DNA of 64,000 nucleotides from Lunularia cruciata (Eukaryota; Streptophyta; Marchantiopsida; Lunulariales; Lunulariaceae), in the NCBI GenBank assembly GCA_948567375.1, contig OX419756.1, positions 62,758,333-62,822,332 on the forward strand. The letters run 5' to 3'. The notes beneath the pieces were generated by a model. That model did not search any database and was not told the origin of the DNA. It was given only the letters and a program-made list of their open reading frames with translations. Positions 7,121 through 64,000 of this stretch are shown here, piece by piece. Made by a program: the position numbers and the translations under genes. Every line of letters starts with the position of its first letter. Within the stretch, counting starts at the first letter, position 1.

Positions 7121-8562
7121 TGTGGTACCCACATTTTTCATTTTGGACAAGATTTGAAGAAGAAGTGCCTTGCTGAAACCAAATTGAAACCAAATTGAGA
7201 AGAAATGAATGGAAACTTGTGTTTTGATCAAACCGGAGGAAGTCAACTTCATGTAAGAGGAAGAAAGATTCGGACTAGATCAAACCCGAAGAACCTTACT
7301 TTGTGTCAGAGGAGGGGAAAACTTGGATTAGACGCCAAAGGAAGGTTTCTTTGCATCGGAATGAAGGTTACAGGTTAGGATTCTTGAGGGAGCTATATCT
7401 CACTGACGACAAGTCTAAATCAAGCGTGCTATATCTCGTTACAAGTGTCTCCTTTAGGTTTTTTCATTGCTACCAAAATCTCAAAGTTTGGAGGTCTCTA
7501 GAAGAAGTAACAAGCATTTGAAGTTTTGGGAGTAGATGTACTTCGGGTTGAGGTTCTTTGGGTCAATGTGACTTTGTACTTCGGACTTCGTACTTTGGGT
7601 TTACATGACTTCGGGTCTAAAGACTTTGCCTCAAGATAAAAATGACTAAATCCAAGGTAGTTGGACCTTGGAGTGGACCAATGAAGGTGACTTGGGGAGT
7701 CTTACTAGAGGGATTAGAGGAAGTTAGAGTAGGGAAAGAAGATAGTTAGAATACCCATGACTTTAATTTCAGTTCTAATTGAAGATGAAACATGAATTGA
7801 AGGAGAAGTTGCAGCAGTGAATAAACCCAAAGTGCAGGATCAGACAGTAAGTGTCTTCGGGTTAGTAACATGAGTGATTGTGGAAAGTGGGTTACAAATT
7901 GAAGGTGTAGATAGTGTACCCATGCTTCAATTACAATTCTTGATGATGACACAATAGAATTAGTAAAGGAATTGATAGTAGTTAAACCCGAGGTAAGAGA
8001 GATAGGAGTGTAGGTGTCTTCGGATTTGACATTTGACACTTTAGAGAAGAGTGGGTTGGGATATAGAGATTTAGAAGGCTTAACTATGATAGGAATTTCA
8101 TATCAGGAAAGAGAAATGTCATAATTAGTGGAGGAATTAGGAGTTGTGAAACCCGAGGATAGAGTAGTAGGAAGTAAATTTACTCCGGGTTCGGGTTTGA
8201 AAGCCGAAGAAGAAGTAGACATCGAATCGGAGTAGAAACTGATTTGAGATTTGAAGAGACAAATATGAAAGGTTGCATTGTCATATGAGATCTGCATGTT
8301 TGTAGAGTTGCTAGGAAGAGGTACATTAGAAAGATAACTGTCAATTGATTCACTATTGAAGAGTGGCATTCATAGTATCATGTTGTTCAGTGCTCATTAT
8401 TTCTGAGAATAGATAAAGCGAAGTGCTGTGAAGCAGTGCTCGTCGCTTGAGCTTGATTCCGAGTATCAACTTTGCAATTGTGTTTGTGAGTGTGTGAAGA
8501 AATTCAAAGTGCAAGTCAGTGTGCTTGTTGGATGTTGGATTCCATAGCCTTGATCTTCATTT
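7121..8562 (+). mobile_element. Family E element, subtype B, 3'-truncated
   Basis: It starts TGTGGTACCCACATTTTTC at 7121, the same start as the 1.9-kb copy at 56737-58653 (read on its minus strand). The expected target duplication is AGTGA (7116-7120). It keeps the C-terminal coding region, ending in a VDIESE-like tail and stop near 8235, and part of the 3' UTR. It breaks off at about 8562, where family A leader sequence begins, so the terminal TTGTCACA and the right target repeat are missing. Imperfect repeats of ACTTCGGGT-like units lie at about 7540-7640. No long ORF survives. Confidence 0.8.
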
Positions 8563-11718: not shown

Positions 11719-11719
11719 A

Positions 11720-11739
11720 TGGTATCAGAGCGAGTGTTC
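11720..11739 (+). promoter_or_regulatory. Family B primer binding site, tRNA-iMet type
   Basis: TGGTATCAGAGCGAGTGTTC follows the 5' LTR by one base. TGGTATCAGAGC is the canonical plant initiator-methionine tRNA complement. Confidence 0.9.
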
Positions 11740-13408: not shown

Positions 13409-13502
13409 TGTACCTCACGGCCTTACTGGCTCAATAAGGAAGCAGAGAAGCAAGGGAAGGAAGAAGAATAATGCACAAAGATCCCGAAAGGCAACCTCAC
13501 AA

Positions 13503-16832: not shown

Positions 16833-16845
16833 AAGGAGGGAGGTC
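16831..16845 (+). promoter_or_regulatory. Family B polypurine tract
   Basis: AAAAGGAGGGAGGTC sits immediately before the 3' LTR and fits the plus-strand primer site. Confidence 0.8.
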
Positions 16846-17587
16846 TATAATACCAAGGGTTAGCCATATGATCTAGATGTGAAATTTGGTTTGGTAACAT
16901 CTAGAATGATGTTATACATGATAGTCAAAATAGATCAGATAGAAGTATCACCAAAAGAGTACTTCTACTAATAGGGCAGAAACCAAAATAGACTTGAGAA
17001 CCTTAGAACCAATAGCTAGACATATGATTTAAAGGTGAGAATTGGTTTGGTAACATCTGGAAGGATGTTACACATGATGGACTAAACAGATCAGAAAGAG
17101 GTATCACCAAAAGAGGACTTCTACTAATAGAGTAGGAACCAAAATATGCTTGAAATCTTTGAAGGTAATTTCGGAGGCCTAAACGGATGAATTAGGCCTC
17201 GAAAATGTGCAGTTCCCCCCCCCCCCAACAAAGGATAGGTTGGCCTTCCCTCCCCCCTGGTTTGTCTCGTCGAGAGCTTTCCAACGGTACCTTACTCATG
17301 TGATTCTGAGATTCCTACAAGAAGATTCCCTAAAAGATTCCCTCTGGTCAAAGCTCGTTTGACCAACCAGATAGGACCTAGACCACACAAGTCACCCATC
17401 CAAGTAAGGAATCCAAGGGTGGAGCTTGCTGACATGTCACCTATCTATGTCCCTAATCCTATGGTGGAGCTTCCTTGGAGGAGATCCTCTTTGTCTATAT
17501 AATAAAGAGAAGGTGCTCCCTTGGGGCATCGAATGTTTGAGTGTGCAATCTGTGTTTTCTCTCTTCTCTTGTCCTCGGAGTATTACA
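16846..17587 (+). repeat. Family B 3' LTR
   Basis: 742 bp, TATAATACC...TATTACA; the 5' TG is mutated to TA. TATATAATAA recurs at 17496-17505. A C-run near 17215 is longer than in the 5' LTR. It is followed by the GGGAT target repeat. Confidence 0.93.
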
Positions 17588-18105
17588 GGGATGGAGGATT
17601 TCTTGATTTCAAAGCAACAATGGAACTACAATGTGTTGGAGGATGTTGGTAGTCACAAAGCTAACATCACAATGGGCCAATTAATTGCTTTGAACCCTAC
17701 CTTGAGAAAGGAGCTTACAGGTGGTGTGAGTTCTACAAGGAGCAAGAGGAAGAAGAAAGCAAAAGTTCCAATATCAATGGAGGTGGTGGATGCCAAGCCA
17801 ACACCATGGGAGGCTTGTGAATATGCCTCCAAGATTGATGTGAGAGTGAATGGTCACAACATCAAGGATGCATTGGTTGATGGAGGATCAACAGTAAATG
17901 CCATGTCAGAAAGGTTGATGAAGAAGTTGGGTATGATACCTTCAAGACCTTCAACATTTGTGGTGAGCATGGCAACAAGTTTGACCAGTAGGGGTGATGG
18001 ATAAAGTGGTAGTTTCAGTTATGGGAGTTCAAAATCTCATGACTTTCCAAGTCTTGAAGGATTCAAGCTATGACTTACTTCTTGGGAGGCCATGGTTGAG
18101 AGCAG
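17588..18105 (+). pseudogene. Family A protease segment between two nested insertions
   Basis: It continues the gag-protease linker cut at 10983 (MEDFLISKQQWNYNVLEDVGSHKANI), then the basic SKRKKKAK linker and the aspartic protease. The active-site region is ALVDGGSTVNAM, with D-G-G-S in place of D-T/S-G. Variant triads occur in non-chromoviral plant gypsy lineages. An 8-bp loss near 17976 shifts the frame, and the second protease half (YDLLLGRPWLRA) runs to 18105, where family E is inserted. The first and second halves are joined in other copies by an in-frame TGA. Confidence 0.85.
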
Positions 18106-18899
18106 TGTGACAACCCGGCAAATATCACTTTTGTGGTAATCGGGTAAGTAAAGTTTGTTCCTACAGAGATACGAGTCAGAATTGGTCAAATATGAAGTCA
18201 AACAGTAACATGTAGTTCTTCTTGGTTTTGTCTTTAATCTCTTAGGCAGAAAACACACCCAGAAGAGAGTAACAAGCACTGACTCACAGTCTTGTCACAA
18301 ATTAACACTTCTTAATCACAACTCCATCAAATCTTTCCAAACAATCTTGATTGTGATGATTCAGGCTCTCTCGAAGACGGCACTTCACTGCAAAATGACT
18401 TCGCCTCAGAATTGTGTTCTACCCCTCCACTGAAGGCACAACTTCCTCAATTGAAATTGCTTCACATCACCTTCGCACTGCACTCACAAATGCAGAATAC
18501 TACCAACACTACAATTCCTCTCAGATGTGTCAAGGCATTGCTTCAATTGCACTTCACTCAGGATCAAACACACAAAATGAAGATCAAGGCTGTGGAATCC
18601 AACATCCAACAAACACTCTGACTTGCACTTCGAATTTCTCCAAACACTCACAAACACAATTGCAAAATTGATACTCAGAATCAAGCTCAAGCGATGAGCA
18701 CTGCTTCACAGCACTTCGCTTTATCTATTCTCAGAAATAATGAGCACTGAACAACAATTTCCTGCAAATGCCACTCTTAAATAGTGAAGCAATCAACAAT
18801 TCTAACAACTATACCGTTCTACAACAATTGTTCTAACCTACAGATCCAAAATGACAATGCACCTCTTCATATCTGCCCCTTCAAATCTCAAATCAGTTA

Positions 18900-21134
18900 C
18901 TAATCCGATCCGATGTCTACTTCTTCCTCGGCTTTCAAACCCAAACCCGAAGTAATCTTACTTCCTACTACTCTGTCCTCGGGTTTCACATCTCCTACAT
19001 CTTCTACCAGATCCAGCAATTCTCTTTCCTGATCTGAAATTGCACTAGTGGGTAATCTATCTAACTCTTCATCCTTTGACCCACTCTTTTGTAATGTCTC
19101 TGAGGGCAACTCCGAAGACATTTGGATTCCTATGTTATCTACTTTGGGTTTTGCCTTAACATCTTGCCGAAGCTTTTCTAACTCTATTCTCACTAAGTCT
19201 AATCTAATCACAATATTGTCTTCTACTTCTAAGATCTTCCTGTCTACACGAGTTCTGAGACTAATCAACAAGGCATTCAAATCTGTATCTTTTGCTTGTC
19301 TTTGCCTCGTCTCCTGCACCAACAACTTCAACTCGTGCAACCTTGTTTCTTCAATCTGAACGCTAGCTTCTATACTTAACATTGCGTTCACTCTGAGGAC
19401 TATTTCCTTCAATGGCTCCAATCTTGTCTTTTGCTCTCGTTCCCGATCTGCAAGCCATTCCTCTCTGTACATCGCTAACTCTTCTTTGAACTCGGCCTTC
19501 ACCGCTTCCTTCTCTTTCTCCTTTTGTACAATTTTCTCCTCCTGATTACGAAGTAACTCTTGTAATCTCTCTTCTTCTCTATACCGTACAGACAACTCTC
19601 TTTGCCAAAGCTGCTTCTTCTCCTCCATACTCTCCATCACTCGATCGAGCTCTTGATCCTTTGATGCTACCCTTGCCATAGCATGGATAAGCTCTACTCT
19701 TGAATCAGCAAACAGCTGCTTCAAGATTTTGTGCTCTGCTACCTGTCTCTCCCTTGCGATGTCACTCTTCCTCGCAAGATCCTCTCGATAACTCACTTCT
19801 CTCTTCAGGTCTTCCATTACCTGACTTCTCTCTACTGCTTCCGTTTGCAGTACTTCTCTCTCCTCCTCACCTCGGGTTATACTCTTCTTCAACTCCAAGT
19901 TTTCTTCTTCTAATCTTGCTACCACCTGCAATACAGTCTTTACCTCTGGACAAGTCGACTGCATCTCCTTCTTCTTCTTCTCCAACTTCACCAACAGCGG
20001 GCATACTACCTTCTGCAGGTAATCTACTCCATTACTGGCAACTTCTTCCTCCCGCGGAGTGGTCTCTCTTCTCTCTTCATGTTCTCCCGATACTCGCCTT
20101 CTTCTTTGGAGTCTTTGTATCGGAATTGACGCCTCACTGCTCGAGCTTTCTTCTACCTCTTCCTTCACTCTACTCGGCCCCGCCTCACACTTTGCCTTAC
20201 GTCTTGAGCGAACTCCTCGCTGTACTATGATCTTCTTCTCCTCGAGCACCGGTACTTTGTCTTCCAGCGCCGCATTGTCTTCGGCTTCTACTTCGGCTTG
20301 CACTTCTTCTTTGTATTCTTCAGCCGCTGGTGCTGAGGTCATTTCTCCACCGTCTTCATTGTCACTGCTAGTATCTCCACTCTGCAGTGTCAGCTCAGGT
20401 TTCTTGTTTTCTTCAGCTTTTGCTTGCTGAGTTCTCTTCTTCGTCGGGGTACTCACCACAATCTCCACGTTTTTCCCTGTCTTCGCGTAGTAATCGTCCG
20501 TGCTCCGGATTTGGAGAATGTATTGCTGCTCCTCCGCGTCGACTTCTCTTCTCAAGTCAGGATAGAAATGAGACACCATTCTATTGCGCTCCGCCATATT
20601 GAGCAAATTCAACCCGAGGTAGAAATGTGCTGCAAATGGTACGATGTAGTGAGGAGGCGACTTATCCCGCAGATTCCACACCATCTGCCTCGTTCTCCCA
20701 TGAAAGCACCTTGCCCAATTGATCGGTTCTCTTGCAAATAACTTGTGAAAGAACACCGCTTGGTGTTTCATCACATAAGTGGTTCTCTCCGGCTTCAGGA
20801 TGGCCATTAGTGCACTCACAATTCCTCTCCTCACAGGGTCTTTGTAGCTCTCAACTTTGTACCCATTCTTTGTCCTCTTCGACGAGAAGGCATCTCTCAC
20901 CTCTTGCGTTTCTTGGGCTATCTCTCCTTTCCCCAAGAACGTGGCTCCCTGCTCCAAACCCGCCTCCTTCCCGAGTATGAGTCTCCAATCCGACTTTGTC
21001 CGGCGAGCCGGATTTCCTCTCTTCCCTTCTTCCTCGGGACCATCGAGACATTTACTCTTGATGATTTCTGTCATGAATCCTGGAAAACTTACGTTCCAGT
21101 TCCATGCCAGAAAAGTGATCCGAAGTAGGCTCAA
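18900..21134 (-). CDS. Family E coiled-coil protein (longest intact frame, 744 codons)
   Basis: I do not recognise this protein. Order: a conserved N-terminal region of ~200 residues (landmarks FLAWNWNVSFPGF, KNGYKVESYKDPV, MKHQAVFFHKLF, ARCFHGRTRQMVWNLRDK, HFYLGLNLL); an acidic and serine-rich stretch with basic patches (RRRKAKCEAG, QRLQRRRRVSG); ~330 residues of charged heptad-type coiled coil (from about VDYLQKVVCPLLVKLE to RIELEKLRQDV); and a conserved tail ending ITSGLGLKAEEEVDIGSD. The listed start is a TTG. The true start is the upstream ATG (MSSNFPSPLRSR in other copies), split off here by a 1-bp loss near 21330 and a deletion near 21210, so full length is near 855 residues. No transposase, RT or integrase motif is seen. 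Confidence 0.75.
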   Translation of the reverse strand: MSLLRITFLAWNWNVSFPGFMTEIIKSKCLDGPEEEGKRGNPARRTKSDWRLILGKEAGLEQGATFLGKGEIAQETQEVRDAFSSKRTKNGYKVESYKDPVRRGIVSALMAILKPERTTYVMKHQAVFFHKLFAREPINWARCFHGRTRQMVWNLRDKSPPHYIVPFAAHFYLGLNLLNMAERNRMVSHFYPDLRREVDAEEQQYILQIRSTDDYYAKTGKNVEIVVSTPTKKRTQQAKAEENKKPELTLQSGDTSSDNEDGGEMTSAPAAEEYKEEVQAEVEAEDNAALEDKVPVLEEKKIIVQRGVRSRRKAKCEAGPSRVKEEVEESSSSEASIPIQRLQRRRRVSGEHEERRETTPREEEVASNGVDYLQKVVCPLLVKLEKKKKEMQSTCPEVKTVLQVVARLEEENLELKKSITRGEEEREVLQTEAVERSQVMEDLKREVSYREDLARKSDIARERQVAEHKILKQLFADSRVELIHAMARVASKDQELDRVMESMEEKKQLWQRELSVRYREEERLQELLRNQEEKIVQKEKEKEAVKAEFKEELAMYREEWLADREREQKTRLEPLKEIVLRVNAMLSIEASVQIEETRLHELKLLVQETRQRQAKDTDLNALLISLRTRVDRKILEVEDNIVIRLDLVRIELEKLRQDVKAKPKVDNIGIQMSSELPSETLQKSGSKDEELDRLPTSAISDQERELLDLVEDVGDVKPEDRVVGSKITSGLGLKAEEEVDIGSD

Positions 21135-21355
21135 GACTTTGATCCTCGCTACTACATCTAATCTCCGAATTGCATGATTTCTTACTACAAATTTGGAGTT
21201 CTTCTGCTTTCTTATTGTCTCTTGATTTCTCTCTCATGACTTCTCCCTTGCGCACTAACACGAGTCCAACTCTATTTCCCTTTCCCCGATCACCTGCAAG
21301 ACGACTCCTCAACGGCGAAGGAAATTGCTCAACATTTTGTCGTTGCAGTTTTGAT

Positions 21356-21363
21356 TTTTATAG
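21356..21363 (-). promoter_or_regulatory. Family E TATA box
   Basis: TATAAAAA on the minus strand, ~25 bp upstream of the conserved first ATG region. The same motif at the same place occurs at 24854-24861, at about 37700 and at about 62078, so transcription of the ORF appears to start inside the element. Confidence 0.6.
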
Positions 21364-21748
21364 AGTTGCACTTCTTTGTCTTCCATCACTTCAAGTATCT
21401 ACCGAGAAATCACACCTCCGGCATGCACCTATCACTATCAATCAACCTTTGTGCGTATGAGCTGCCAGTTTTGAAATGGCCCCTTCTTGAATTTCTCACC
21501 CCGACAAAAGGTTGTTAGACTGTCTTTGCCTCAGGTTGAGCTCCCCCCGATCCAAAGACAATCTACTTCGTATTGTATGCTGACACGGCATTTCCGAGTA
21601 CTTCGTCTTATGACCCGAAGTCACTTTACTTTGGGTTTCATCCCGAAGACAATTTTCTTCACCTTCTTCGGCCATACAGGCACAATCGGACTTCTCTATA
21701 CACTTCTTCTCCTTTATTTTCAAAAAAACAAAAAATGTGGGCACCACA

Positions 21749-22300
21749 AGCAGCACGCACAACTGATTGATGGCACAAAGGGTACTTGAGGATTGGGCCA
21801 TCAAACCATAGAGTAATAGTTCCTGTGACTAACACCACCAACACTTCACATTCAGATACACCATCTTCTGATTATTGGGAATCAGATTCTGAAGAAGGAG
21901 CTTCAGGTGTGGACACAAGCATGGAGGAGGAGACTTCCATGGAGGAGGATGAATCTGAATCTGATTCAGATGTGCATCCCTTGTGTGCTATGGATTTTGC
22001 ACCTAAGCCAGAGGTTTTGAAGGACCCAGAAAAATCACCATTGACACTTGAGGAGGTAGAGAGAAGGTTATCTACCCCCAAGTATGGCCCAAATGTTACC
22101 AGGAGGAGAAGGTGAGATTTGAGGAGATTTTCCGCTAGTTCATCCATGTGTTTGCTTTTAGTTACAAGGATTTGAAGGAAGTCACCTTGGAGGAGCACAA
22201 GATAGAGGTAGAGTCACATGCAAGACCAATCCGCCAAAAGCAACGTCACATTAGCCCACCAATATCTTTGTTGTAAAGGAGGAGATTGATAAGCTCAAGG
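21749..22300 (+). pseudogene. Family A protease end and acidic linker to RT
   Basis: After the AGCAG target repeat the frame continues through KGYLRIGPSNHRVIVP into a strongly acidic, serine-rich linker (21846-21980; WESDSEEG, MEEDESESDSD), then a helical segment (LTLEEVERRLSTPKYGP) and the RT entry region. A 1-bp loss near 22100 and a change near 22275 break the frame. The acidic linker is present in all three copies that retain this region (also 50220-50400 minus and 59220-59340). Confidence 0.8.
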
Positions 22301-22320
22301 AGGCTGGATTTATCTTTGAG

Positions 22321-23400
22321 GTGGAGAATTCAGAATGGGTGTCTCCAATTGTCATTGTGAAGAAAAAGAATGGCAAGCTTCGAGTATGTGTGGATTACAA
22401 GAAGCTCAATGCTGTTACCAAGAAGGACTACTACCCATTGCCATTCATTGATGAGATTTTGGAGGAGGTTGCAGGTCATGAGAGGTACAATTTTGGAGAT
22501 GGTTATAATGGATACAACCAAATCAAGATTGCACCAGAGCATCAACAACTCACCACATTCACCACACCTTGGAGAACTTACGCTTTCAAGGTCATGCCTT
22601 TTGGGCTTTGCAATGCTCCTGCCACATTCCAACGGTTCATGAACAAGGTATTTGAACCTTTCATTGGGAAATTTGTGAGAGACTTCATTGATGACTTTTG
22701 TGTCTATGGGAGCAAGGAGGAGCACTTTGAGCACCTTATCAAAGTCTTGCAACGCTTGGATGAGGCAAATGCATCACTCAACCCAGAGAAGTGCATTTTT
22801 GGATGTGAAGAAGGTCTACTTTTGGGGCACATCATCTCTAAGGATGGAATAGTAGTTGATCCTGAGAAGGTGAGGAAAATCTTAGACCTTCCATTCCCTT
22901 CAAGCTTGACAAATTTACGCCAATTCTTGGGAATGGTTGGGTACTATAGGAGGTTCATCTTCTCATTTTCCAACAAGACTTATGCATTGACCATCTACAT
23001 GAAGAAGGGTGTAGATTACATGGTGATTTTGGAAGACAAGGAGGCTCTCAAAGCTTTTGAGGAGCTCAAGCAATCCCTTGTTGTAGCTCCAATTCTTGCT
23101 AAACCTGATTGGAGTAAGCCTTTCATCCTCTACACTGATGCTTCTAATGTAGCTATAGGATTCACTCTTATTCAATTAGACCAAGATGGGCATGATCATC
23201 CAATAGCTTATGCTAGTAGGCAGATGGTTTCAGCAGAGAAGAACTACTCTGTCACGGAGAGAGAAGGGTTGGCAGTGATCTTTGGTCTCAAGAAGTTTAG
23301 ACACTACTTGATTGGAGGGAAAGCCACAATTGTCACGGATCACAAGGCTTTGAACTACATCTTCAACAAGACTAATGTTGAAGGGAGACTAGCAAGGTGA
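22321..23400 (+). pseudogene. Family A reverse transcriptase and RNase H
   Basis: RT carries SEWVSPIVIVKKKNGKLRVC, a DYYPLPFIDE finger-palm motif, and the catalytic FIDD at 22684-22695. RNase H follows (about 23115-23380) with YTDASNVAIG, a TEREGLAV glutamate and TDHKAL. The frame is open for 359 codons. It ends at a TGA where the minus copy at ~46275 has TGG (Trp), so the stop is a mutation and the polyprotein really continues into integrase. The sequence fits non-chromoviral (Athila/Tat-like) gypsy, because it lacks a chromodomain and uses a different primer tRNA. Confidence 0.92.
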
Positions 23401-24471
23401 ATGATACTCTTGTCTAAGTATGACTACACCATTGAGGATAGGCCACGAAAGAAACATGCAAATGCTGATTTGTTATCAAGAGCCTATGATCATGATGGAG
23501 ATGAGCCTATGGATGATTCCTTCCCGGATGAGGAGCTCATGACAATCTCAGTCACTCAAGAGGTTCCAATGGAGTACAAGGAGATTGTGGATTTTGTGAC
23601 AAGAGGTAACTATCCAAAAGGGATGCATGCTAGGCAGAGGAAGGCCCTTGCAGCAAGATCTAGACCTTACACAATGGTGGAGGATATTCTTTTTCACCAA
23701 GGAGTAGATGGTCTACTTCGAAGAGCAATGGGTAAGGAAGAGTCTATCCTACTCATAAAGGAGTTTCATGAAGGTTTAGTATGTGGAGGACACTTTGCAG
23801 GAAATGTGACTGCTTTCAAGATTCTAGATGCAAGTTACCATTGGAGAGGGATTTTCAAGGATTTTCTTGATTATTGCAAAACTTGTCATGTTTGTCAAGC
23901 TTTTGCTAGAAAGTCTACATCCACTCCACCACTTAGATCAATTCCATTGCTAGGACCTTTTGAGAAGTGGGGAATTGATTTTGTAGGTCCTCTCAGTAGA
24001 ACCCCAAGGAACACTTGGTACATTGTGGTAGTTATTGATTACCTTACCAAGTGGGTTGAGGCTAGACCATTGAGGGACAAGAATGAAGATGAAGTGGGTA
24101 GATTTCTTTATGAATGTATTATCACTAGGTTTGGATCCCCTTTGGAGTTGGTTTCTGATAGAGGAGGAGAGTTTACAGGAAGCATTACTACAGCCATGCT
24201 ACAACATTTCTCTATCACACATAGAGTAACTACATCCTATAAGCCAAATTTCAATGGCTTGGCAGAGAGAACCAATCAGACCTTGTGCATGATGTTGGCC
24301 AAAGATGCAGAAATGGAGGGGGCTAAACATCATTGGGACAAGAGGATTCATGCAGTTTTGTGGGAGTATAGGACAACCATGAAGACTTCCACCGGATATT
24401 CTCCATTTCAATTGGTGTATGATATTGAGTCTACCCTACTTATTCACTTTGATCTTCCTACCTTCCAAAGC
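23401..24471 (+). pseudogene. Family A integrase, N-terminal and catalytic domains
   Basis: The RNase H connection (DYTIEDRPRKKHANADLLSR) leads into the zinc-binding region with CKTCHVC at about 23880-23900. The catalytic core has WGIDFVGP (first Asp), VSDRGGEF (second Asp) and GLAERTNQ (Glu). The frame is open from 23401 to the insertion point, where PTFQS is followed by family E at 24472. The C-terminal part resumes at 28248, in frame once one copy of the AAAGC target repeat is discounted. Confidence 0.92.
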
Positions 24472-27400
24472 TGTGGTGCCCACAAATCTTTTTTCAGAAT
24501 AAAGGAGAAGAAGTGTATAGAGAAGTTGGATTGCGCATGTATGGCCAAAGAAGGCAAAGAAAAGAGTCGTTGGGATGAAACCCAAAGTAAAGTGACTTTG
24601 GGTCATAAGCCGAAGTATTTGGAAATGCCTTGTCAGCATACAACCCAAAGTAAATTGTCTTTGGATTGGGGGGAGCTCAACCCGAGGCGAAGACAGTCTA
24701 ACAACCTTTTGTCGGGGCAAGAAATTCAAGAAGGGGCCGTTTGAAAACTGGTGGCTCATACGCACAAAGGTTGATTGGTAGTGACAGGTGCATGTTGGAG
24801 GTGTTATTTCTTGGTAGGAACTCAAAGTGACAGAAGATAACAAAGCGCAACTGTATAAAAATCAAAATTGCAACGACAAAATGTCGAGCAAGTTTCCTTC
24901 ACCGTTGAGGAGTCGTCTTGTAGGTGATTGGGGAAAGGGAAATAGAGTTGGACTTGTGTTAGTGCGCAAGGGAGAAGTTGCAAGAGTGAAATCAAGAGAA
25001 AGTGAGAAAGTAGAAGAGATGGGAGGAGGGAAGAAGAACTCTGAATTCGCACTGAGAAATCATGCGATTCGGAGGTTAGATGTGATAGCAAGGATCAAAG
25101 TCTTGAGCCGACTTTGGATCACCTTTTTGGCATGGAACTGAAACGTGAGTTTTCCAGGATTCATGATAGAAATCATCAAGAGTAAGTGTCTCGATGGACC
25201 CGAGGAAGAAGGGAAGAGAGGAAATCCAGCTCGCTGGACAGAGTCGGATTGGAGACTCATACTCGGGAAGGAGGCAGGCTCGGAGCAGGGAGCCACGTTC
25301 TTGGGGAAAGGAGAGATAGCTCAGGAGCGCAGGAGGTGAGAGATGCCTTCTTGTCGAAAAGAACGAAGAATGGGTACAAAGTTGAGAGTTACAAGGATCC
25401 AGTGAAGAGAGGGATCGTGAGTGCTCTCATGGCAATCTTGAAGCCAGAGAGAATGACTTATGTGATGAAACACCAAGCGGTGTTCTTCCATAAGTTGTTT
25501 GCAGGAGAACCTATCAAGTGGGCGAGGTGTTTTCACGGGAGAACAAGGCAAATGGTGTGGAATTTGCGGGATAAGTTGCCTCCACACTACATTGTGCCAT
25601 TTGCAGCACACTTCTACCTCGGGCTCAATTTTTTGAACTCGGAGGAGTGGACTCGGATGGTGTTGCACTTCCATCCTGATGTGCAAAAGGAGGTCGACGT
25701 TGAGGAGCAGTAGTACGTTCTCCAAATCCGGAGCACGAACAACTACTACGCAAAGACAAGGAAGAATGTGGAGGTCGTAGTGAGTACCCCGACAAAGAAA
25801 AGGAGTTGGCAAGTAGAAGCCGAAGAAAGCAAGAAACCTCAGAAGATGCAGAGAAGTAACCCGAGGCAAAGTATGGTGGTAATTGAGTCGGAAGATGAAG
25901 ACTCAAAAGGCAAGGCCGAGCTGAAGACGGAAGACTTGGAACATGAGGAGGAACCTGAACTGACATTGCAGAGTGGAGATACGAGCAGTGACACAGTGAA
26001 GAAGGAGGAGAGATGACATCGATGCCAGCGGCTAACGAAGAAGAAGAAGAAGTGCAAGCCGAGTTGGAGGCCAAAGACAACTGGCTGTTGGAAGACTAAG
26101 TCCCGGTGCCCAAGGAAAGGAAGATCGCAATGCAGCGAGGGGTTTGCTTGAGACGTAAGGTGAAGTGTGAAGCGGGGCCGAGTAAAGTGAAGGAAGAGGC
26201 ACGAGAAAGCTCGAGAAGCAAAGCGTCAATCCCGATACAAAGACTCCAGAGAAGAAGGCGAGTATCAGGAGAACACAAGGAGAGAAGAGAGACCACTCCG
26301 CGGGAGGAAGTAGTTGCCAGTGATGGAGTCGAGTACCTGCGAGAGGTGGTGTGTCCTTTGTTGGTGAAACTGGAGTACAAGAAGAAGGAGATGCAGTCGA
26401 CTTGTCCATAGGTGAAGATTGTTCTACAGGTCTTATTGAAATTAGAAGAAGAGAACTCGGAGTTGAAGAGAGGTATAACCCAAGGTGAGGAGGAGAGAGA
26501 AGTACTGCAAGCGGAGGCAATAAGGAGAAGTCAGGTAATTGAAGACCTGAAGAGGGAAGTGAGCTATTGAGAGGATCTTGTGAGGAAGAGTGACATAGCA
26601 AGAGAGAGATAGGTAGCTGAACACAAAATCTTGAAGCAACAGTTTGCTGATTCAAGAAAAGAACTTATCCATGCTATGGCGAGGGTAGCAGCAAAGGATC
26701 AAGAGCTCGATAGAGTGATGGAGAGTATGGAGGAGAAGAAGCAACTCTGGCAAAGAGAGTTGGCTGCGCGGTATAGAGAAGAAGAGAGATTATGAGAGTT
26801 ACTTCATAATCAAGAAGAGAAAGTTGTATAGAAGGAGAAGGAGAAGGAGACGGTGAAAGCCAAGTTCGAGGCAGAGTTGGCGATGTACCGAGAGGAATGG
26901 CTTGCAGATCGGGAATGAGAAAGGAAGACAAGATTGGAGCCATTGAAGGAGATAGTCCTCAGGGTGAACGCAATGTTAAGTACAGAAGCCAACGTTCAAA
27001 TTGAAGAAGCACGTTTGCACGAGTTAAAGTTGTTGGTGCAAGAGACAAGGCGTAGACAAGCAAAAGACACCGAGATGAATGCCTTGTTGATCAAATTAAG
27101 AACTCGTGTAGACAGAAAGGTTTTAGAGGTAGAGGATAACATTTCAATTAGATTAGACTTAGTGAAAATAGAGCTAGAAAAACTTCGGAAAGATGTTAGA
27201 GCAAAACCCGAAGTAGATAACATAGGAGTCCAAATGTCTTTGGAGTTACCATCAGAGACATTAGAGAAAAGTGGGTCCGGAGATAAGGACTTAGATAGAT
27301 TACCCACTAGTGGAATTTCAGATCAAGAAAGAGAGTTGCTGGAATTGGTAGAAGAAGTAGAAGATGTGAAACCCGAGGAAAAAGTGATAGGAAGTAAAAT

Positions 27401-28247
27401 TACTTCGGGTTTGGGTTTGAAAGCCAAAGAAGAAGTAGACATCGGATCGGATTAGTAACAGATTTGAGATTTGAAGAGGCAGATATGAAGAGGTGCATTG
27501 TCATTTTGGATCTGCAGGTTAGAACAGTTGTTGTAGAACGGTATAGTTGTTAGAACTGTCAATTGCTTCACTACTTAAGAGTGGCATTCGCAGTCAAATG
27601 TTGTTCATTGCTCATTATTTCTGAGAATAGATAAAGCAAAGTGTTGTGAAGCAGTGCTCGTAGCTTGAGCTTGATTCCGAGTATCAACTTTGTGTCTATG
27701 TTTGTGAGTGTTTGAAGAAATTTGAAGTGCAAGTCAAAGTGCTTGTTGGATGTTGGATTCCATAGCCTTGATCTTCATTCTGTGTGTTTGATCCTGAGTA
27801 AAGTGCAATCAAAGCAATGCCTTGACAGATCTAAGAGGAATTGTAGTGTTGGTAGTATTCTGCACTTGTGAGTGCAGTGCAAAGTTGATGTGAAGCAATT
27901 TCAATCGAGGAAGTTGTGCCTTCAGTGGAGGGGTGGAACACAATTTTGAGGCAAAGTCATTTTGCAGTGAAGTGCTATTCTCGGGAGAGCCTGATCATCA
28001 CAATCAAGATTGTTTGGAAAGAATTGAAAGAATTGTGATTAAGGAGTGTGAATTTGTGACAAGATTGCAAGTCAATGTTTGTTACTCTCTTCTGGGTGTG
28101 GTTTCTACCTGAGAGATTAAAGACGCAACCAAGAAGAACTAAATTGTTACTTTGACTTCGTATTTGGACATTTTTGACTCATATCTCTATGGGAACAAAC
28201 TTTACTTATCCAATAACCGCAAAAGTGAAATTTGTCGGGTTGTCACA
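24472..28247 (+). mobile_element. Family E element, subtype A, complete (3776 bp)
   Basis: It begins TGTGGTGCCCACA and ends GGGTTGTCACA, with a perfect AAAGC duplication (24467-24471 and 28248-28252). It is inserted in the same transcriptional orientation as the family A integrase it splits. No internal LTR pair, primer site or purine tract is visible. TATAAAAA lies at 24854-24861 and the ORF start ATG at 24881. Confidence 0.9.
24881..27455 (+). pseudogene. Family E coiled-coil protein, broken
   Basis: It starts MSSKFPSPLRSRLVGDWGKG at 24881, the best view of the true N-terminus. Stops or shifts occur at 25142 (TGA for Trp), near 25335, at 25711 (TAG for Gln), near 26000, at 26096, 26409, near 26567 and near 26793, among others. 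Domain order matches the 18900-21134 copy: conserved N-terminal region, acidic segment, coiled coil, VDIGSD tail. The 3' UTR from 27456 to 28247 has no gene. It contains GTGCTTGTTGGATGTTGG and other blocks conserved in all subtype A and B copies. Confidence 0.85.
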
Positions 28248-37377: not shown

Positions 37378-40300
37378 TGTGGTGCCCACATTTTATTTTA
37401 TTTTTAAATAAAGGAGAAGAAGTGTATAGAGAAGTCGGATTGCGCGTGTATGACCGAAGAAAGTGAAGAAAGGAGTCTTTGGGAGGAAACCCAAAGTAAA
37501 GTGACTTCGGAGCGGGGGGAGCTCAACCCAAGGCAAAGACAGTCTAACAACCTTTTGTCAGGGCGAGAAATTCAAGAAGGGGCCGTTTCAAAACTGGTGG
37601 CTCATATGCACAAAGGTTGATTGACAGTGATAAGTGCATGTTAGAGGTGTGATTTCTCAGTAGGAACTCAAAGTGACGGAAGACAAAGTAGCACAACTCT
37701 ATAAAAATCAAAACTACAACGACAAAATGTCGAGCAATTTTCCTTCGCCGTTGAGGAGTCGTCTTGCAGGTGATCGGGGAAAGGGAAATAGGTTGGACTC
37801 ATGTTAGTGCGCAAGGGAGAAGTTGCAAGAGTGAAATTGAGAGAAAGTGAGAAAGTAGAAGAGATGGGAGGAGGGAAGAAGAACTCCAAATTCGCAGTCA
37901 GAAATCATGCAATTCAGGGATTAGATGTGATAGCAAGGATTGAAGTCTTGAGCCAACTTTGGATCACCTTTTTGGCATGGAACTGGAACGTGAGTTTTCC
38001 AGGATTCATGACAGAAATCATCAAGAGTAAGTGTCTCGATGGACCCGAGGAGAAGGAAAGAGAGGAAATCCGGCTCGCTGGACAGAGTCGGATTGGAGAC
38101 TCGTACTCGGGAAAGAGGTAGGCTCGGAGCAGGGAGCCACGTTCTTGGGGAAAGGAGAGATAGCCCAAGAAACGCAGGAGGTGAGAGATGCCTTCTCGTC
38201 AAAAAGAACAAAGAATGGGTATAAGGTTGAGAGCTACAAAGATCCTGTCAAGAGGGGAATTGTGAGTGCTCTCATGGCAATCTTGAAGTTGGAGAGAACG
38301 ACTTATGTGATGAAACACCAAGCAGTGTTCTTCCATAAGTTGTTTGCAGGAGAACCTATCAATTGGGCAAGGTGTTTTCACGGGAGAACAAGGCAGATGG
38401 TGTGGAATTTGCGGGATAAGTCACCTCCACATTACATTGTGCTGTTTGCAGCACACTTCTACCTCGGGCTCAATCTACTGACCTTGGTGGAGCGGAATCG
38501 GATGGTGTCGCACTTCCATCTGGATGTGCAAAAGGAGGTTGATGTCAAGGAGCAGCAATATATTCTCCAAATCCGGAGCACGGACGACTACTACGCAAAG
38601 ATAGGAAAGAACGTGGAGGTCGTAGTAAGTACCCCGACAAAGAAGAAAAGTCGGCAAGGAGAAGCCAAAGAAAGCAAGAAACCTCGGAAGATGCAGAGAA
38701 GTAACCCGAGGCAAAGTATGGTGGTGATTGAGTTGGAAGATGAAGACTTAGAAGGCGAGGCCGAGCTCAGGACGGAGGACTCGAAACATGAGGAGGAACC
38801 TGAACTGACATTGCAGAATGGAGATACGAGCAGTGACAATGAAGAAGGAGGAGAGATGACATTGGTGCCAACGGCTAACAAGGAAGAAGAAGAAGTGCAA
38901 GTCGAGGTGGAAGCTGAAGACAACTTGCCATTGGAAGACGAAGTTCCCGTGGCTGAGGAAAAGAAGATCGCAGTGCAGCGAGGAGTTCGCTCGTGACGTA
39001 AGGCAAAATGTGAAGTAGGGCCAAGTAGAGGGAAGGAAGAGGTAGAAGAAAGCTCGGGCAGTGAGGCATCAATCCCGATACGAAGACTCCAGAGAAGAAG
39101 GCGAGTATCAGGAGAACACGAGGAGAAAAGAGAGACCACTCCGCGGGAGGAAGTAGTTGCCAGTGATGGAGTCAATTACCTGCGAGAGGTAGTGTGCCCG
39201 TTGTTGGTGAAGTTGGAGCACAAGAAGAAGGAGATGCAGTCGACTTGTCTAGAGGTGACGACTATTTTGCAAGTCCTTTCGAGATTAGAGGAAGAGAACT
39301 CGGAGTTGAAGAGAGGTATAACCCGAGGTGAGGAGGAGAGAGAAGTACTGCAAGCGGAGGCAGTAGAGCGAAGTCAGGTAATTGAAGACCTGAAGAGAGA
39401 AGTAAATTATCGAGAGGATCTTGTGAGGAAGAGTGACATAGCAAGGGAAAGACATGTAGCTGAATTCAAAGTCTTGAAGCAATAGTTTGCTGATTCAAGA
39501 GTAGAACTTATCCATGCTATGGCGAGGGTAGCAACGAAGGATCAAGAGCTCGATAGAGTGATGGAGAGTATGGAGGAGAAGAAGCAACTCTGGCAAAGAG
39601 AGTTGTCTGCGCGGTATAAAGAAGAAGACTGATTACGAGAATTAAAGAAGGAGAAGGAGAAGGAGAAGGAGAACAGAGCAGACGGAGAAGGAGAACAAAA
39701 GGAGAAGGAGAAGGAGATGGTGAAGGCCAAATTCAAGGCAGAGTTGGAGATGTACCGAGAGGAATGGCTTGCAGATTGGGAACGAGAACGGAAGACAAGG
39801 TTGGAGCCATTGAAGGAGATAGTCCTCAAGGTGAATGTGATGTTAAGTATAGAAGCCAGCGTTTGAATTGAAGAAGCTTGACTGCATGAGTTAAAATTGT
39901 TGGTGCAGGAGACAAGGCAAAGACAAGCGAAAGACACCAAGATGAATGCCTTGTTAATAAAACTAAGAACTCATGTAGACAGAAAGGTGTTAGAGGTAGA
40001 GGATAACAATTCAATTAGATTAGACTTAGTGAAAATAGAGTTAGAAAAACTTCGGAAGGATGTTAGAGCAAAACCCGAAGTAAATAACATAGGAGTCCAA
40101 ATGTCTTTGGAGTTACCATCAGAGACATTAGAGAAGAGTGGGTCGGGAGATAAGGAGTTAGATAGATTACCCACTAGTAAAATTCCAGATCAAGAAAGAG
40201 AATTGTTGGATCTGGTAGGAGAAGTAGGAGATCTGAAACCCAAGGAAAAAGTGATAGGAAGTAAGATTACTTCGGGTTTGGGTTTAAAAGCCAATGACGA

Positions 40301-41099
40301 AGTAGACATCGGATCGGATTAGTAACAAATTTGAGATTTGAAGAGGCAGATATGAAGAGGGGCATTGTCATTTTGGATCTGCAGGTTAGAACAATTGTGG
40401 TAGAACAATATAGTTGTTAGAACTGTCGATCGTTTCACTATTTAAGAGTGGCATTTGCAGAGAAATGTTGTTCAGTGCTCATTATTTCTCAGAATAGATA
40501 AAGCAAAGTGCTGTGAAGCAGTGCTTGTTGCTTGTGGTTGATTCTGAGTATCATTTTTGTGTTTATGTTTGTGAGTGTTTGGAGAAATTTGAAGTGCAAG
40601 TCAGAGTGCTTGTTGGATGTTGGATTCCACAGCCTTGATCTTCATTCTGTGTGTTTGATCCTGAGTGAAGTGCAATCGAAGTAATGCCTTGACGGATTTG
40701 AGAGGAATTGTAGTGTTGGTAGTATTCTGCGTTTGTGAGTGCAGTGCAAAGTTGATGTGAAGCAATTTTGATTGAGGAAGTTGTGCCTTTAGTGGAGGGG
40801 TGGAACACAATTCTGAGGCGAAGTCATTTTGCAGTGAAGTGCCGTTTTTGGGAGAGCCTGATTGTTTCAAAAGATTTGATGGAGTTGTGATTAAGAAGTG
40901 TGAATTTGTGACAAGATTGCGAGTCAGTGCTTGTTACTCTCTTCTGGGTGTGGTTTCTACCTGAGAGATTAAAGACGCAACAAAGAAGAACTGAAATTGT
41001 TACTTTGCTTTGTATTTGACCAATTCTGACTCGTATCTCTGCGAGAACAAACTTTACTTACCCGATTACCGCAAAAGTGATATTTGCCGGGTTGTCACA
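37378..41099 (+). mobile_element. Family E element, subtype A, complete (3722 bp)
   Basis: TGTGGTGCCCACA start, GGGTTGTCACA end, perfect AGCTG duplication (37373-37377 and 41100-41104). It is inserted within the PHD-coding codons of family C. The TATA box is at about 37700 and the ORF ATG at 37727. No LTRs. Confidence 0.9.
37727..40322 (+). pseudogene. Family E coiled-coil protein, broken
   Basis: It has the same architecture as the 18900-21134 copy. Readable pieces are 37801-38121 (N-terminus), 38031-38996 (321 codons; conserved N-terminal domain and acidic segment, ending at a TGA that fits CGA), 39192-39485 (coiled coil, ending at TAG for Gln) and 39897-40322 (coiled coil and VDIGSD tail). 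A local expansion of GGAGAAGGAGAA-type sequence at about 39640-39720 lengthens the Lys/Glu run. The 3' UTR is 40323-41099. Confidence 0.85.
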
Positions 41100-44792: not shown

Positions 44793-44805
44793 TTTACCCC
44801 CGGAC
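44793..44805 (-). promoter_or_regulatory. Family A polypurine tract, minus element
   Basis: TTTACCCCCGGAC on the plus strand, i.e. GTCCGGGGGTAAA on the minus strand, immediately inside the 3' LTR. Confidence 0.75.
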
Positions 44806-50562: not shown

Positions 50563-50569
50563 CTACTAG

Positions 50570-53640: not shown

Positions 53641-53644
53641 GAGG

Positions 53645-53661: not shown

Positions 53662-53665
53662 AAAA

Positions 53666-56736: not shown

Positions 56737-58653
56737 TGTGACAACCCAGCAAATACCACTTTTGCGGTAATCGGGTAAGTAAAGTTTGTTCCCGTAGAGA
56801 TACAATTCAGAATTGGTCAAATATGAAGTCAAACAGTAACTTGTAGGTCTTCTTGGTTTCTTCTTTAATCTCTCAGGTAGAAACTACACCCCAAAGAGAG
56901 TAACAAGCTCACAATCTTGACAACTTGTCACAAATACACACACCCATAATCACAACATAGCAAATTCTGTCCAAACAAATCTTTATTGTGATGATTCAGA
57001 TTCTCCCGAAGATGGCACTTCACTATGAAGAACAACTTCACCACAAAATTGTGTTCCACCCCTCCACTAAAGGCACAACTTCCTCGATTGAAATCGCTTC
57101 ACACCAACTTCGTGCTACACTCACAAATGTACAATACTACCAACACTACAATTTCTCTCAGATCTGTCAATGCATTGCTCCGATGCACTTCACTTAGGAT
57201 CAAACACACAGAATGAAGATCAAGGCTGTAGAATCCAACATCCACAGACACACTAATTTGCACTTCAAAATTCTCCACACACTCACAAACACAAACACAA
57301 AATTGACAATCAGAATTAAGCTTAAGCAACGAGCACTACAAACCAACACTTTGCTTTATCTATCTTCAAAACTTTGAATACTGAACAACATAATATTGCA
57401 AATGCCACCCCTTAAATACTAAAGCAAACGGCAGTTCTTCCTACTAATGCACCGCTTCCTAACATCTCTTCCTACTTGCAGATCCAAATAGATAATCCAC
57501 CTCTTCATATCTGCCTCTTCCTATCTCAAAACTATTACTACACCAATCCAATGTCTACCCCATCATTGGCTTTCAAATCCAATGATCTTCCTACTACTTC
57601 TCCTTCTTCGGGTATATCTGATTCTACCAATTCCTTCACTACTTCTACTACTTCTACAATAAGAACTACAATTAAGCTTAGGGTTACTCCATCTACTTCT
57701 TTATCTCTTGACCCACTCTTCTCTAATGTGTCAAATAACAAGTCAGATGACACTTGTATTCTTACTTCTGCAACATTGGGTCTAATTACAATCAGTTCCT
57801 TTGCTAATTCTACTATATCCTCATCACAAATTGTAATTGAAAGCATGGGTACACTATCTACACCTTCAATTTATAGCCCACTTTCCCATAATCTCTCATG
57901 TTACTGACTCAAAGACACTTAAAGTCTGATCTTGCACTTTGGGTTTATTTATTACTACTATTTCTCTTCTAATTTTATCATATCTTCAATCAAAACTAAA
58001 ATTGAAGTCATGGGTATCCTGATTATCTATTCTTCCTCTATCTTAACTCTCTCTAATTTCTTTGGCAAGATTCCAGAAGTCACCTCCACTACACTTGGAG
58101 GTCCGACTATCTCAGATCTAGTCATCTTTGTCTTGAGGCAAAGAAGCTTCTAATCCAAAGTTGTGTAAATCTGAAGTCCAAAGTCCAAAGTCTCAAGCCC
58201 AAAGCCCAAAGTCTCAAGCCCAAAATCCAAAGTCTCAAGTCCAAAGTCCAAAGTCTTAAGTCCAAAGTCCAAAAACCCGAAGACATTAACTTATTATGTA
58301 CATCTACTCCCAAAACTTCAAATACTTGTAACTTCTTCTACAAACTTCCAAACTCTGCAATTTTGGTAGCAACGGAAAGCCTTGAACACAATGCCTCTAA
58401 CAAAATATAGCGTGCTTGATTTCAACTTGTGGAAATTGAGATATACCCCCCGCAAGAATCTCTACCTATAACTTCCATTCCTCCTTTGGGTCTGGCCTCT
58501 TTCAATCCTGGCTGAGTCCGTCTTCATCTGACACAAAGTTGACTTCCTTGGGCTTGATCAAAATAAAAATTTCCTCTCATTTCTTTTCCATTTGGTTTCA
58601 GCAAGGCACTTCTTCTTCACAACTCATCCAAAATGAAAAATGTGGGTACCACA
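56737..58653 (-). mobile_element. Family E element, subtype B, complete (1917 bp)
   Basis: On the minus strand it begins TGTGGTACCCACATTTTTC and ends GGGTTGTCACA, with a perfect GTAGT duplication (56732-56736 and 58654-58658). The uninterrupted host sequence at 17645-17665 confirms the exact insertion point. Its 3' ~0.8 kb matches subtype A. Its 5' part matches only the 7121 copy, so it is a separate shorter subfamily. A diverged remnant of the coding tail (57846-57538 minus, ending LKANDGVDIGLV) is the only coding trace. Confidence 0.9.
58165..58275. repeat. Short tandem repeat inside family E subtype B
   Basis: Imperfect units such as AGTCCAAAGTC and TCAAGCCCAAAG are repeated about nine times. 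The 7121 copy has an expanded, diverged equivalent at about 7540-7640. Confidence 0.75.
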
Positions 58654-61689: not shown

Positions 61690-64000
61690 TGTGGTGCCCA
61701 CATTTTTTGTTTTTTTTCAAAATAAAGAAGAAGAAGTGTGTAGAGAAGGCGGATTGCGCTTGTATGGCCAAAGAAGGTGAAGAAAAGAGTCTTTGGGATG
61801 AAACCCAAGGTAACGTGACTTTGGATCATAAGGCAAAGTACTCAGAAATGCCCTATCAGCATATAACTTGAAGTAAATTATCATCGTATCGGGAGGGGAG
61901 CTGAACCCGAGGCGAAGACAGTCTAACAACCTTTTGGTCGGGGCGAGAAATTCAAGAAGGGACCATTCAAAAACCGGTAGCCCGGATGCGCAAAGGTTGA
62001 TTGACAGTGATAGGTGCATGCAGGAGGTGTGATTTCTTGGTAGAAACTCAAAGTGACAAAAGATGAAGAAGCGCAACTCTATAAAAATTGAACTTGCAAC
62101 AATGAAATGTCAAGTAATTTTGCTTTGCCGTTGAGAAGTCATCTTGCAGGTGATCATGGGAAGGGAAATAGAGTTGGAATCGTGTCAGTGCGCAAGGAAG
62201 AAGTTGCGAGAGTGAAATCAAGAGAGAGTGAGAAGGTAGAAGAGATGGGAGGAGGAAAGAAGAACTCCAAATTTGTAATGAGAAATCATGCAATTCAGAG
62301 GTTAGATGTAATAGCGAGTATCAAAGTCTTGAGCCGACTTTGGATCAATTTCTGGCATGGAACTAGAATGTAAGCTTTCCAGGATTCAAGACATAAATCA
62401 TCGAGAGCAAGAGTCTCGATGGACCCAAGGAAGAAGGGAAGAGAGGAAATCTGGCTTGCTGGATAGAGTCGGATTGGAGACTTGTACTCGGGAAGGAGGC
62501 AGGCTTGGAGCAGGGAGCCACGTTCTTGGGGAAGGGAGAGATAGCTCAAGAGACACATGAGGTGAGAGATGCCTTCTCATCAAAGAGGACAAAGAATGGG
62601 TATAAGGTTGAGAGCTACAAAGACCCTGTGAAGAGAGGGATCGTGAGTGCCCTGATGGCTATCCTGAAGTCAGAACCACATATGTGATGAAACACCAAGC
62701 GGTGTTCTTTCACAAGCTTTTCACAGGAGAACCAATCAATTGGGTGAGGTGTTTCCATGGGGGAACGAGGCAGATGGTGTGGAATTTGCAGGATAAGTCG
62801 CCTCTACACTACATCGTGCTATTTGCAGCACACTTCTACCTTGGGCTCAACCTGCTGAACTTGGCGGAGCGGACTCGGATGGTGTCGCATTTCCATCCGG
62901 ATCTACAAAAGGAAGTCGATGTGAAGGAGCATCAATACATCCTGCAGATCAGGAGCACTGATGACTACTATGCAAAGACGGGGAAGAATGTGGAAGTCAC
63001 AGTGAGTACCCCGACTACAAAGAAGAGGGGTCGGCAAGGTGAAGCCAAAGACATCAAGAAACCTCGGAAGACACGGAGAGGCAACCCGAGGCAAAGTATG
63101 GTGGTAATTGAGTCGGAGGACGAAGACTCATAAGAAGATGCCGAGCTCAAAACTGAAGACTTGGAACACAAGGAGGAGCCTGAGCTAATGCTGCAGAGTG
63201 GAGATACAAGCAGCGATAGTGATGAAGGGGGAGGAACAACATCGGTGCCAGCGGCTGAAGAATACAAAGAAGAAGAAGTGCAAGCCGAGATGGAAGTCGA
63301 AGACAACACATAGTTGGAAGATGAAGTAACTGTGCCCGAAGAAAAGAAGATCGCAGTATAGCAAGGAGTTTGCTCAAGACGTAAGGCGAAGTGTGAAGCG
63401 GGGCCGAATAAAGCAAAGGAAGAGGTAGGTGAAAGCTCGGGAAGTGAGGCTTCAATTCCGATACGAAGACTGCAGAGATGAAGGCGAGTATCGGATGAAT
63501 AGGAAGTACAAAGAGAAGTGGCCATACAAGAAGACATAACCCCGAGTGAAGGAATGGAGTACCTGCGGGAGAGTGTGTGTCCATTGTTGGTGAAATTGGA
63601 GCACAAAAAGAAGGAGATGCAGTCAACATGTCCAGAGGTAAAGACTGTATTGCAGGTGTTGGCCAGATTAGAAGACGAAAACTTGGAGTTGAAGAATAGT
63701 ATAACCCGAGGTGAGGAGGAAAGGGAAGTGCTGCGAGCGGAGGCAGTAGAGAGAAGTCAGGTAATTGAAGACCTGAAGAGAGAAGTCAGTTATCAAGAGG
63801 ATCTTGTGAGGAAGAGTGACATAGCAAGGGAGAGACAAGTAGTGGAGTATGAGATCTTGAAGCAACAGTTTGTTGATTCACGACTAGAAATTATCCATGC
63901 TATGATGAGGGTTGTAGAGAAGGAACAAGAGCTTGATAGAGTGATGGAGAGTGTAGAAGAGAAGAAGCAACTCTGAAAACGAGAGTTGGCAACACGATAT
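61690..64000 (+). mobile_element. Family E element, subtype A, right end outside window
   Basis: It starts TGTGGTGCCCACATTTTTTG; the left flank predicts a CACTC duplication. The leader, TATA box (about 62078) and start ATG (62107) match the other subtype A copies. The element is open at the window edge. Confidence 0.88.
62107..64000 (+). pseudogene. Family E coiled-coil protein, partial
   Basis: It reads MSSNFALPLRSHLAGDHGKG, then the conserved N-terminal domain in pieces (62505-62687, 62684-63133 with HQAVFFHKLF and HFYLGLNLLN), the acidic region with a TAA near 63131, and the coiled coil 63518-63976 ending at TGA in a position that is Trp in other copies. It is cut by the window end. Confidence 0.83.

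Follow-up and report, generated by a model that had tools for sequence, protein, structure and literature searches.

The window analysed here, a 64-kb stretch of the Lunularia cruciata genome (64,000 nucleotides; contig OX419756.1, positions 62,758,333 to 62,822,332 of the forward strand), holds six copies of a repeat called family E, four of a long type and two of a short type. Two of them, E18 and E24, are nested within a gypsy element, H, and the long type carries one long reading frame (Table 1). The explanation that best accounts for the whole, and that we hold with high confidence, is that family E is the long terminal repeat (LTR) of a Ty3/gypsy retrotransposon, that its copies in the window are solo LTRs, and that the LTR harbours a selected gene, probably placed in U3 (the LTR portion upstream of the start of the genomic RNA), the product of which would be a trans-acting accessory protein.

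All six copies have the same 13-base start (TGTGGTRCCCACA), found without mismatch at 7121, 21748 (-), 24472, 37378, 58653 (-) and 61690; when up to two mismatches are allowed, the window has eight matches to it against a mean of 2.04 in shuffled sequences. Four copies lie in the window with both of their ends; they are TG...CA elements with the common end TTGTCACA, and each is flanked by a perfect 5-bp target duplication (AGCAG, AAAGC, AGCTG and GTAGT), a set of four matches that would arise by chance about once in 10^12, assuming equal base use. For three of the four (the insertions at 18106, 24472 and 56737), the unoccupied target site is preserved in a paralogous copy of H within the same window, and no empty site was found in the window for the insertion at 37378, the site of which has no paralogue there. 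The two termini of the repeat are not direct repeats of each other and, read inverted, have only TGTG and scattered bases in common. On all these points – six copies with a fixed start and end, perfect duplications around the complete ones and dissimilar termini – the original prediction, made from the letters of the window, was right. Two palindromes also lie near the termini, one at the very start of the E37 LTR (37378-37390, TGTGG-TGC-CCACA) and the other just before the LTR end (41060-41092), which reads ACCCG...GCAAA...TTTGC-CGGGT in better preserved copies.

The nature of family E is apparent from the genome at large, in which the original prediction had proposed to look for copies paired in direct orientation around a primer site and gag-pol. 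Such pairs exist. The assembly (565.8 Mb, 74 contigs) was searched with the first 1001 bases of the copy at 24472, which gave 6,930 first-look candidates, 40 of which were scored, all with at least 91% identity; the 20 copies that were fetched are the best-matching places beyond the window's own and not a random draw. Three of these (L011, L015 and L025) are 5' LTRs with similar right flanks, in which a primer-binding site (PBS; TGATTTTTGGCGCCGCTGCCGGGGAT) lies directly 3' of the LTR in L011 and L015, and in a decayed form in L025. Another three (L022, L023 and L027) are 3' LTRs, directly preceded by a polypurine tract (PPT; GAGGGAGGGGGTA or a near copy) and, further upstream, by common pol sequence; their left flanks are alike over 3.1 kb in L023 and L027, and over the last 0.6 kb in L022, and that of L027 encodes reverse transcriptase (RT), RNase H (RH) and integrase (INT). 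L025 forms with L031 a complete two-LTR element of 13,688 bp, with a 5' LTR of 3779 bp, a 3' LTR of 3771 bp and ACACC on both sides. In a second element (L011 with L029), CTCTA duplications are found on both sides and the 3' LTR is partly deleted, while in a third (L027 with L030) the 5' LTR is truncated and followed by the PBS. Since direct LTR pairs enclose PBS, gag-pol and PPT, with matching outer duplications in two elements, the E copies are LTRs, those of a Ty3/gypsy retrotransposon of about 13.7 kb whose LTRs measure about 3.77-3.79 kb.

The internal region of this element, pieced together from L011/L029, L027 and L031, contains the Pfam domains Retrotrans_gag, Ty3_capsid, RVT_1, RT_RNaseH, Integrase_H2C2 and rve, to which a protease can be added with a weak score (Asp_protease_2, E 0.00044, below the Pfam cut-off). 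The Ty3/gypsy type of integrase that the original prediction had invoked is thus present in the E element itself. The integrase frame stops about 180 bp short of the 3' LTR in L031, and neither a second RNase H, which characterises Tat within the Ogre/Tat/Athila superclade, nor a chromodomain was found in the E-element frames scanned by Pfam. Genome-wide, there are 1,440 LTR-PBS junctions (27-base pattern, up to two mismatches) against none in a reversed control, and an internal kilobase used as query gave 2,479 first-look candidates, 40 of which were scored. The opposite orientation of the repeat, with TGTGACAACCC as the LTR start and the gene antisense, is ruled out by the PBS and PPT, which put the gene in sense. 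Mobilisation by the host family H, the LTRs of which also start with TGT and end with CACA, is not needed because the E element has its own integrase.

The copies in the window are solo LTRs. So are 13 of the 20 fetched copies, ten with perfect duplications (L009, L010, L012, L013, L014, L017, L018, L020, L021 and L024, the LTR end of which carries one base change) and three with one mismatch in five (L016, L019 and L028), the only copy left unassigned being L026. The occurrence in one genome of both two-LTR copies and solo LTRs bears out the second of the two options of the original prediction, that is, solo LTRs of an element with protein-coding LTRs of ~3.7 kb. Solo LTRs would most simply arise by recombination between both LTRs of an inserted element. 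Unequal recombination is reported to affect long LTRs more readily (PMC7251063, citing Du et al. 2012), and LTR length may explain why E is mostly solo whereas not one of the six full-length H LTRs in the window, each 0.7 kb long, has the look of a solo LTR.

The gene carried by these LTRs has a fully open frame in E18 alone among the window copies. It is present but interrupted by stops in the other long copies, and reduced to its C-terminal end in the two short ones (7121-8561 and 56737-58653), so that the original description of E as carrying one long coiled-coil gene holds for the long type but not for the short, and the coiled coil itself is unproven. In the other 59 copies that were scored, the frame is 780-885 codons long once stops are ignored and aligns with E18 in two segments, which means that E18 is without a piece of the linker. 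The gene also extends to a diverged lineage, E', represented by a 3696-bp solo LTR (L023, 6152-9847 (-)) that sits in an E LTR between the duplications GCATT/ACATT. This copy, in spite of six stops, keeps the gene over nearly its full length, with 36-60% amino-acid identity. The last 1.3 kb of the LTR is about 74% alike between E' and E, and the short copy E58 is nearer to E' (84% over ~1050 bp) than E is (74%).

Two putative promoters frame the gene. TATA box 1 sits 317-388 bp from the LTR start in 21/21 rows tested, while TATA box 2, 664-682 bp from the LTR end, reads CTATTTAAG in 14 rows and CTACTTAAG in five, and is missing from three. Among the short copies, TATA box 2 is retained in E58 and altered in E7. 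Both boxes are found in E', at positions 372 and 3018, with the frame between them there too. If TATA box 2 is the genomic-RNA promoter, as its motif would indicate, everything upstream, including the gene, would be U3, and this layout suggests that the gene sits in U3. Its mRNA would then come from its own promoter, TATA box 1, and could end at the poly(A) site within the R (repeat) region of the LTR. Being LTR-borne, the gene comes in two copies with each new insertion and persists as one in each complete long solo LTR.

Evidence that this frame mattered comes from the ratio of nonsynonymous to synonymous substitution rates (dN/dS), for which two neutral references are available: the two LTRs of one element, which are identical at insertion, and a simulation, in four sets of 60 runs, that used the polarised mutation spectrum. 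Three within-element LTR pairs, with a divergence of 6.2%, 6.3% and 4.5%, have dN/dS of 0.454, 0.491 and 0.306, and the simulation gives means of 0.52-0.54, with minima of 0.30, 0.37, 0.40 and 0.36 at mean dS of 0.09, 0.17, 0.32 and 0.58, respectively. Among the pairs listed, E18 compared with other lineages has dN/dS of 0.14-0.18 at dS of 0.44-0.53, under all 120 neutral runs at dS 0.32 and 0.58. Over the 171 pairs of 19 copies, the median is 0.286 (range 0.141-0.587), the highest values being those of close pairs, and shifted frames have medians of 0.59 and 0.89 (29 pairs each). Conservation is most pronounced in the N-terminal domain, where residues 61-180 have dN of 0.023-0.038 against dS of 0.66-0.75, a dN/dS near 0.05. 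From these substitution patterns, the LTR gene is judged to have evolved under purifying selection while the family was active. In the LTR pairs L025/L031 and L027/L030, 251 of 378 polarised changes are C to T or G to A, as expected of methylated, silenced DNA.

The protein is an orphan as far as it was searched. No relative was found among ~5.8 billion proteins (7,991 candidates scored for the whole protein and 452 for its N-terminal part), nor among viral or prokaryote contigs, and no Pfam family scored above cut-off, with no transposase or integrase domain. Weak Pfam matches to KRIT1_FRMD8_FERM_C (0.11), Peptidase_S49_N (0.019) and Mab-21_C (0.045) are under the cut-off and not believed. 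There was no match to the plant mobile domain (PMD, PF10536) or Transposase_28 (PF04195) up to E 10 or E 5, although profiles may miss distant relatives. A structure model of the N-terminal part, built from four window sequences, had a mean pLDDT (predicted local distance difference test score) of 43 and was not used. From residue 241 on, charged residues make up 41-44% of the protein and there is a weak 3.5-residue periodicity, which makes a coiled-coil C-terminal part plausible but not proven. Our best guess is that the protein is a trans-acting accessory factor that would aid the expression or transposition of the element, with anti-silencing, assembly or import as candidate activities. This guess is prompted by the selection on the gene, by the insertion of a short LTR without most of it, and by the combination of a strongly conserved N-terminal domain with a part that is charged and probably a coiled coil.

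Several observations weigh against this picture of a selected LTR gene. At least one in-frame stop is present in a matched segment in 58 of the 60 scored copies (a count that covers stops, not frameshifts), and a short-type LTR without most of the gene (E58) was inserted too, from which it follows that the gene is not needed in cis. The promoters, like the U3/R boundary and the poly(A) site, have been guessed from sequence motifs. As for selection, a clear purifying signal comes from comparisons of diverged lineages only, the closest pairs looking neutral because post-insertion decay dominates them, and the third within-element pair (L011, 189 codons) has its low dN/dS from few changes. Finally, E18 has a high dS within the gene body but a low one towards either edge of the gene, and E61 has a low dS at the N-terminal edge (the sole edge present); in both, divergence is also low in the non-coding LTR next to the gene. 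At its non-coding ends, E18 is only 8-13% different from the four other copies listed, though dS in the gene is near 0.5. Such similar ends would mean either strong constraint or recombination swapping gene bodies among LTRs, and the dS profile favours some recombination; recombination between lineages, beside constraint, may therefore shape these LTRs.

Other explanations for the same facts fare less well. The first option of the original prediction was that E is an LTR-less cargo unit that has a promoter and a gene of its own and is moved in trans by an integrase of gypsy or Ginger-like type, and the window alone lends itself to that idea: its six E copies all stand alone, with their own 5-bp duplications in 4/4 of the complete ones, whereas its six full-length H LTRs each adjoin a PBS or PPT. 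However, elsewhere in the genome this sequence forms the LTRs of elements that have PBS, gag-pol and PPT between them, two of these elements having matching duplications, and it directly precedes the PBS at 1,440 junctions; this refutes the cargo unit as a general explanation and leaves it with next to no probability. Besides, a conserved TATA box that points outward ~670 bp from the end fits an LTR, not a closed unit, and the gene has no transposase or integrase domain in Pfam.

Accepting solo LTRs, one may still ask whether the frame is a mere passenger, captured or fortuitous and of no function for the element. A protein without relatives or a Pfam family in the collections searched, stops in nearly all scored copies and the existence of an LTR type without most of the gene are what such a passenger would look like, but the cross-lineage dN/dS of E18 below every neutral run at comparable dS, the near invariance of residues 61-180 and a gene still recognisable over near-full length in E', though decayed there, make it improbable. 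Alternatively, the gene could belong to a domesticated host family picked up by the elements, with selection acting on the host copy. The selection estimates compare LTR lineages with one another and, with 20 loci sampled, the LTRs might be fed by conversion from a master copy in the host. Nevertheless, the copies with both ends traced lie in E-type LTRs (some diverged pieces, e.g. in L024, being untraced), the frame lies between both TATA boxes in E' as well, in an LTR whose last 1.3 kb has diverged as described above, and there is no homologue in the protein collection searched, all of which makes a host origin of the signal very unlikely.

How does this layout compare with known systems? 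In most respects, the E element is like any plant Ty3/gypsy element, with TG...CA ends, 5-bp duplications (reported for 93.4% of the elements surveyed in PMC6317226), PBS, PPT and gag-protease-RT-RH-INT domains. It differs in that its LTR holds a conserved gene of at least 744 codons, whereas the extra open reading frames (ORFs) of plant elements, as these surveys present them, lie in the internal region, up- or downstream of gag-pol (PMC7264820; PMC6317226). Long accessory genes, as antisense or extra ORFs, are indeed described for Grande, RIRE2, Retand and Ogre (PMC7264820; PMC6317226), but in the first three of these elements they are placed between pol and the 3' LTR, unlike the E gene. 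Retrosat2, RIRE3 and RIRE8 of rice resemble E in having LTRs of ~3 kb or more and one extra ORF (PMC3485330), but ORF0 of Retrosat2 precedes the gag-pol ORF, and what that source says of it does not place it in the LTR (PMC3485330). Nor does the E gene have a Pfam match above cut-off to the plant mobile domain or Transposase_28 families. Ginger transposons share TGTNR-type ends with Gypsy LTRs and, in the case of TDD-4 and TDD-5 of Ginger2, have 5-bp duplications (PMC2836005), but they differ from E by terminal inverted repeats of ~40-300 bp, mostly 4-bp duplications and an encoded integrase-like transposase, none of which is a feature of E, an LTR.

The nearest known layout to that of E would seem to be mouse mammary tumour virus (MMTV), in which a protein gene, sag, also lies within the LTR and makes it exceptionally long; the likeness is in layout only, with no sequence relationship claimed. 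The sag product is reported to be made from two transcripts, the second via another promoter (PMC3026287). MMTV differs from E by being a retrovirus with a ~1.3-kb LTR, by the nature of sag, which is a superantigen, and by the splicing of one message from the 5' LTR. The open-access literature searched, which takes in few subscription journals and no bioRxiv preprints, showed no plant element whose LTR holds a protein gene. E would thus be an ordinary Ty3/gypsy element that leaves ordinary solo LTRs, and what is unusual is the selected gene in the LTR.

The host family H and its surroundings deserve a brief description. The named relatives of the H polyprotein, among the best 120 of 375 matches, are from Taxus, liverworts (Riccia, Marchantia and Calypogeia) and a fern; there are also records labelled PITA (loblolly pine) and many matches without a name. 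Such relatives point to a land plant, and probably to one outside the flowering plants. A two-LTR copy at 44101-54357 (-) has LTRs of ~692 bp (TGTAAAACCC or TGTAATACCC...GGCTCACA) and flanks that resemble ATACA, with an extra A on one side; it is old, because its LTRs are only ~87% alike. The stretch 5355-10983 holds two tandem copies of H internal sequence (5355-7126 and 8554-10325, 93% alike) with the 3'-truncated E7 LTR in between, an arrangement that looks as if recombination joined E7 to a second H copy. At 3975-4658, a complete H LTR is preceded by a head-to-tail duplicate of its first ~340 bp. Another LTR element, G (10986-17585), is nested in H and has LTRs of ~731-738 bp that are 96% alike, with ends TAATACC...GTATTA rather than TG...CA. 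Lastly, minisatellite-like arrays with 101-bp and 315-bp periods, rich in GGAGAGGAATTTT, occupy 33229-34873, in surroundings that are otherwise non-repeated in the window.

Table 1. Family E copies, their gene, its putative promoters and the host element in the window (positions within the 64-kb stretch).
Feature	Positions	Strand	Details
E18, complete solo LTR, long type	18106..21748	-	3643 bp; AGCAG at 18101-18105 and 21749-21753; empty site ~50439-50453 (-) in paralogous H copy
E24, complete solo LTR, long type	24472..28247	+	3776 bp; AAAGC duplications; empty site near 45210-45212 (-)
E37, complete solo LTR, long type	37378..41099	+	3722 bp; AGCTG duplications
E61, long-type LTR, cut by window end	61690..64000	+	7 in-frame stops in 513 gene codons
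E58, complete solo LTR, short type	56737..58653	-	1917 bp; GTAGT duplications; C-terminal gene end only; empty site near 3771-3776
E7, short-type LTR, 3' end lost	7121..8561	+	Left insertion point fits empty host copies
LTR gene in E18	18900..21134	-	744 codons without a stop, the frame being free of stops back to 21233; conserved domain at the N-terminus, then a charged linker and a long C-terminal part that is also charged
LTR gene in E24, decayed	25019..27455	+	9 in-frame stops in 739 codons
LTR gene in E37, decayed	37864..40322	+	5 in-frame stops in 739 codons; start approximate, by analogy with E24
TATA box 1 (TATAAAA), putative LTR-gene promoter	21356..21362	-	21/21 rows tested
TATA box 2 (TATTTAA), putative genomic-RNA promoter, end of U3	18777..18783	-	19/22 rows tested
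Host gypsy element H, with E18 and E24 nested within	22255..24471	+	RT and RNase H recognised by Pfam, integrase from its likeness to the H copy at 45504-46814

What could such a gene mean for retrotransposon biology? Tentatively, and with a likelihood that we place slightly short of even, family E represents a plant Ty3/gypsy lineage with a selected accessory gene in U3 that has its own promoter and encodes a trans-acting protein, the solo LTRs being a possible helper pool for the remaining full elements. If this is true, the gene would outlive the recombination that removes gag-pol, and many solo LTRs would remain as stand-alone, promoter-bearing single copies of it, the product of which might (i) counter silencing, (ii) help particle assembly or (iii) promote nuclear import. 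The function of antisense accessory genes in plant retrotransposons is described as not known (PMC7264820), and the very conserved N-terminal domain of the E protein would be a workable starting point for studying what accessory genes do, all the more so as the system has a built-in neutrality test, the two LTRs of one element being the same gene twice, identical at the start. The usual view is that LTRs are control regions that code for nothing and that solo LTRs are inert leftovers; a large gene under selection inside the LTR would alter both ideas.

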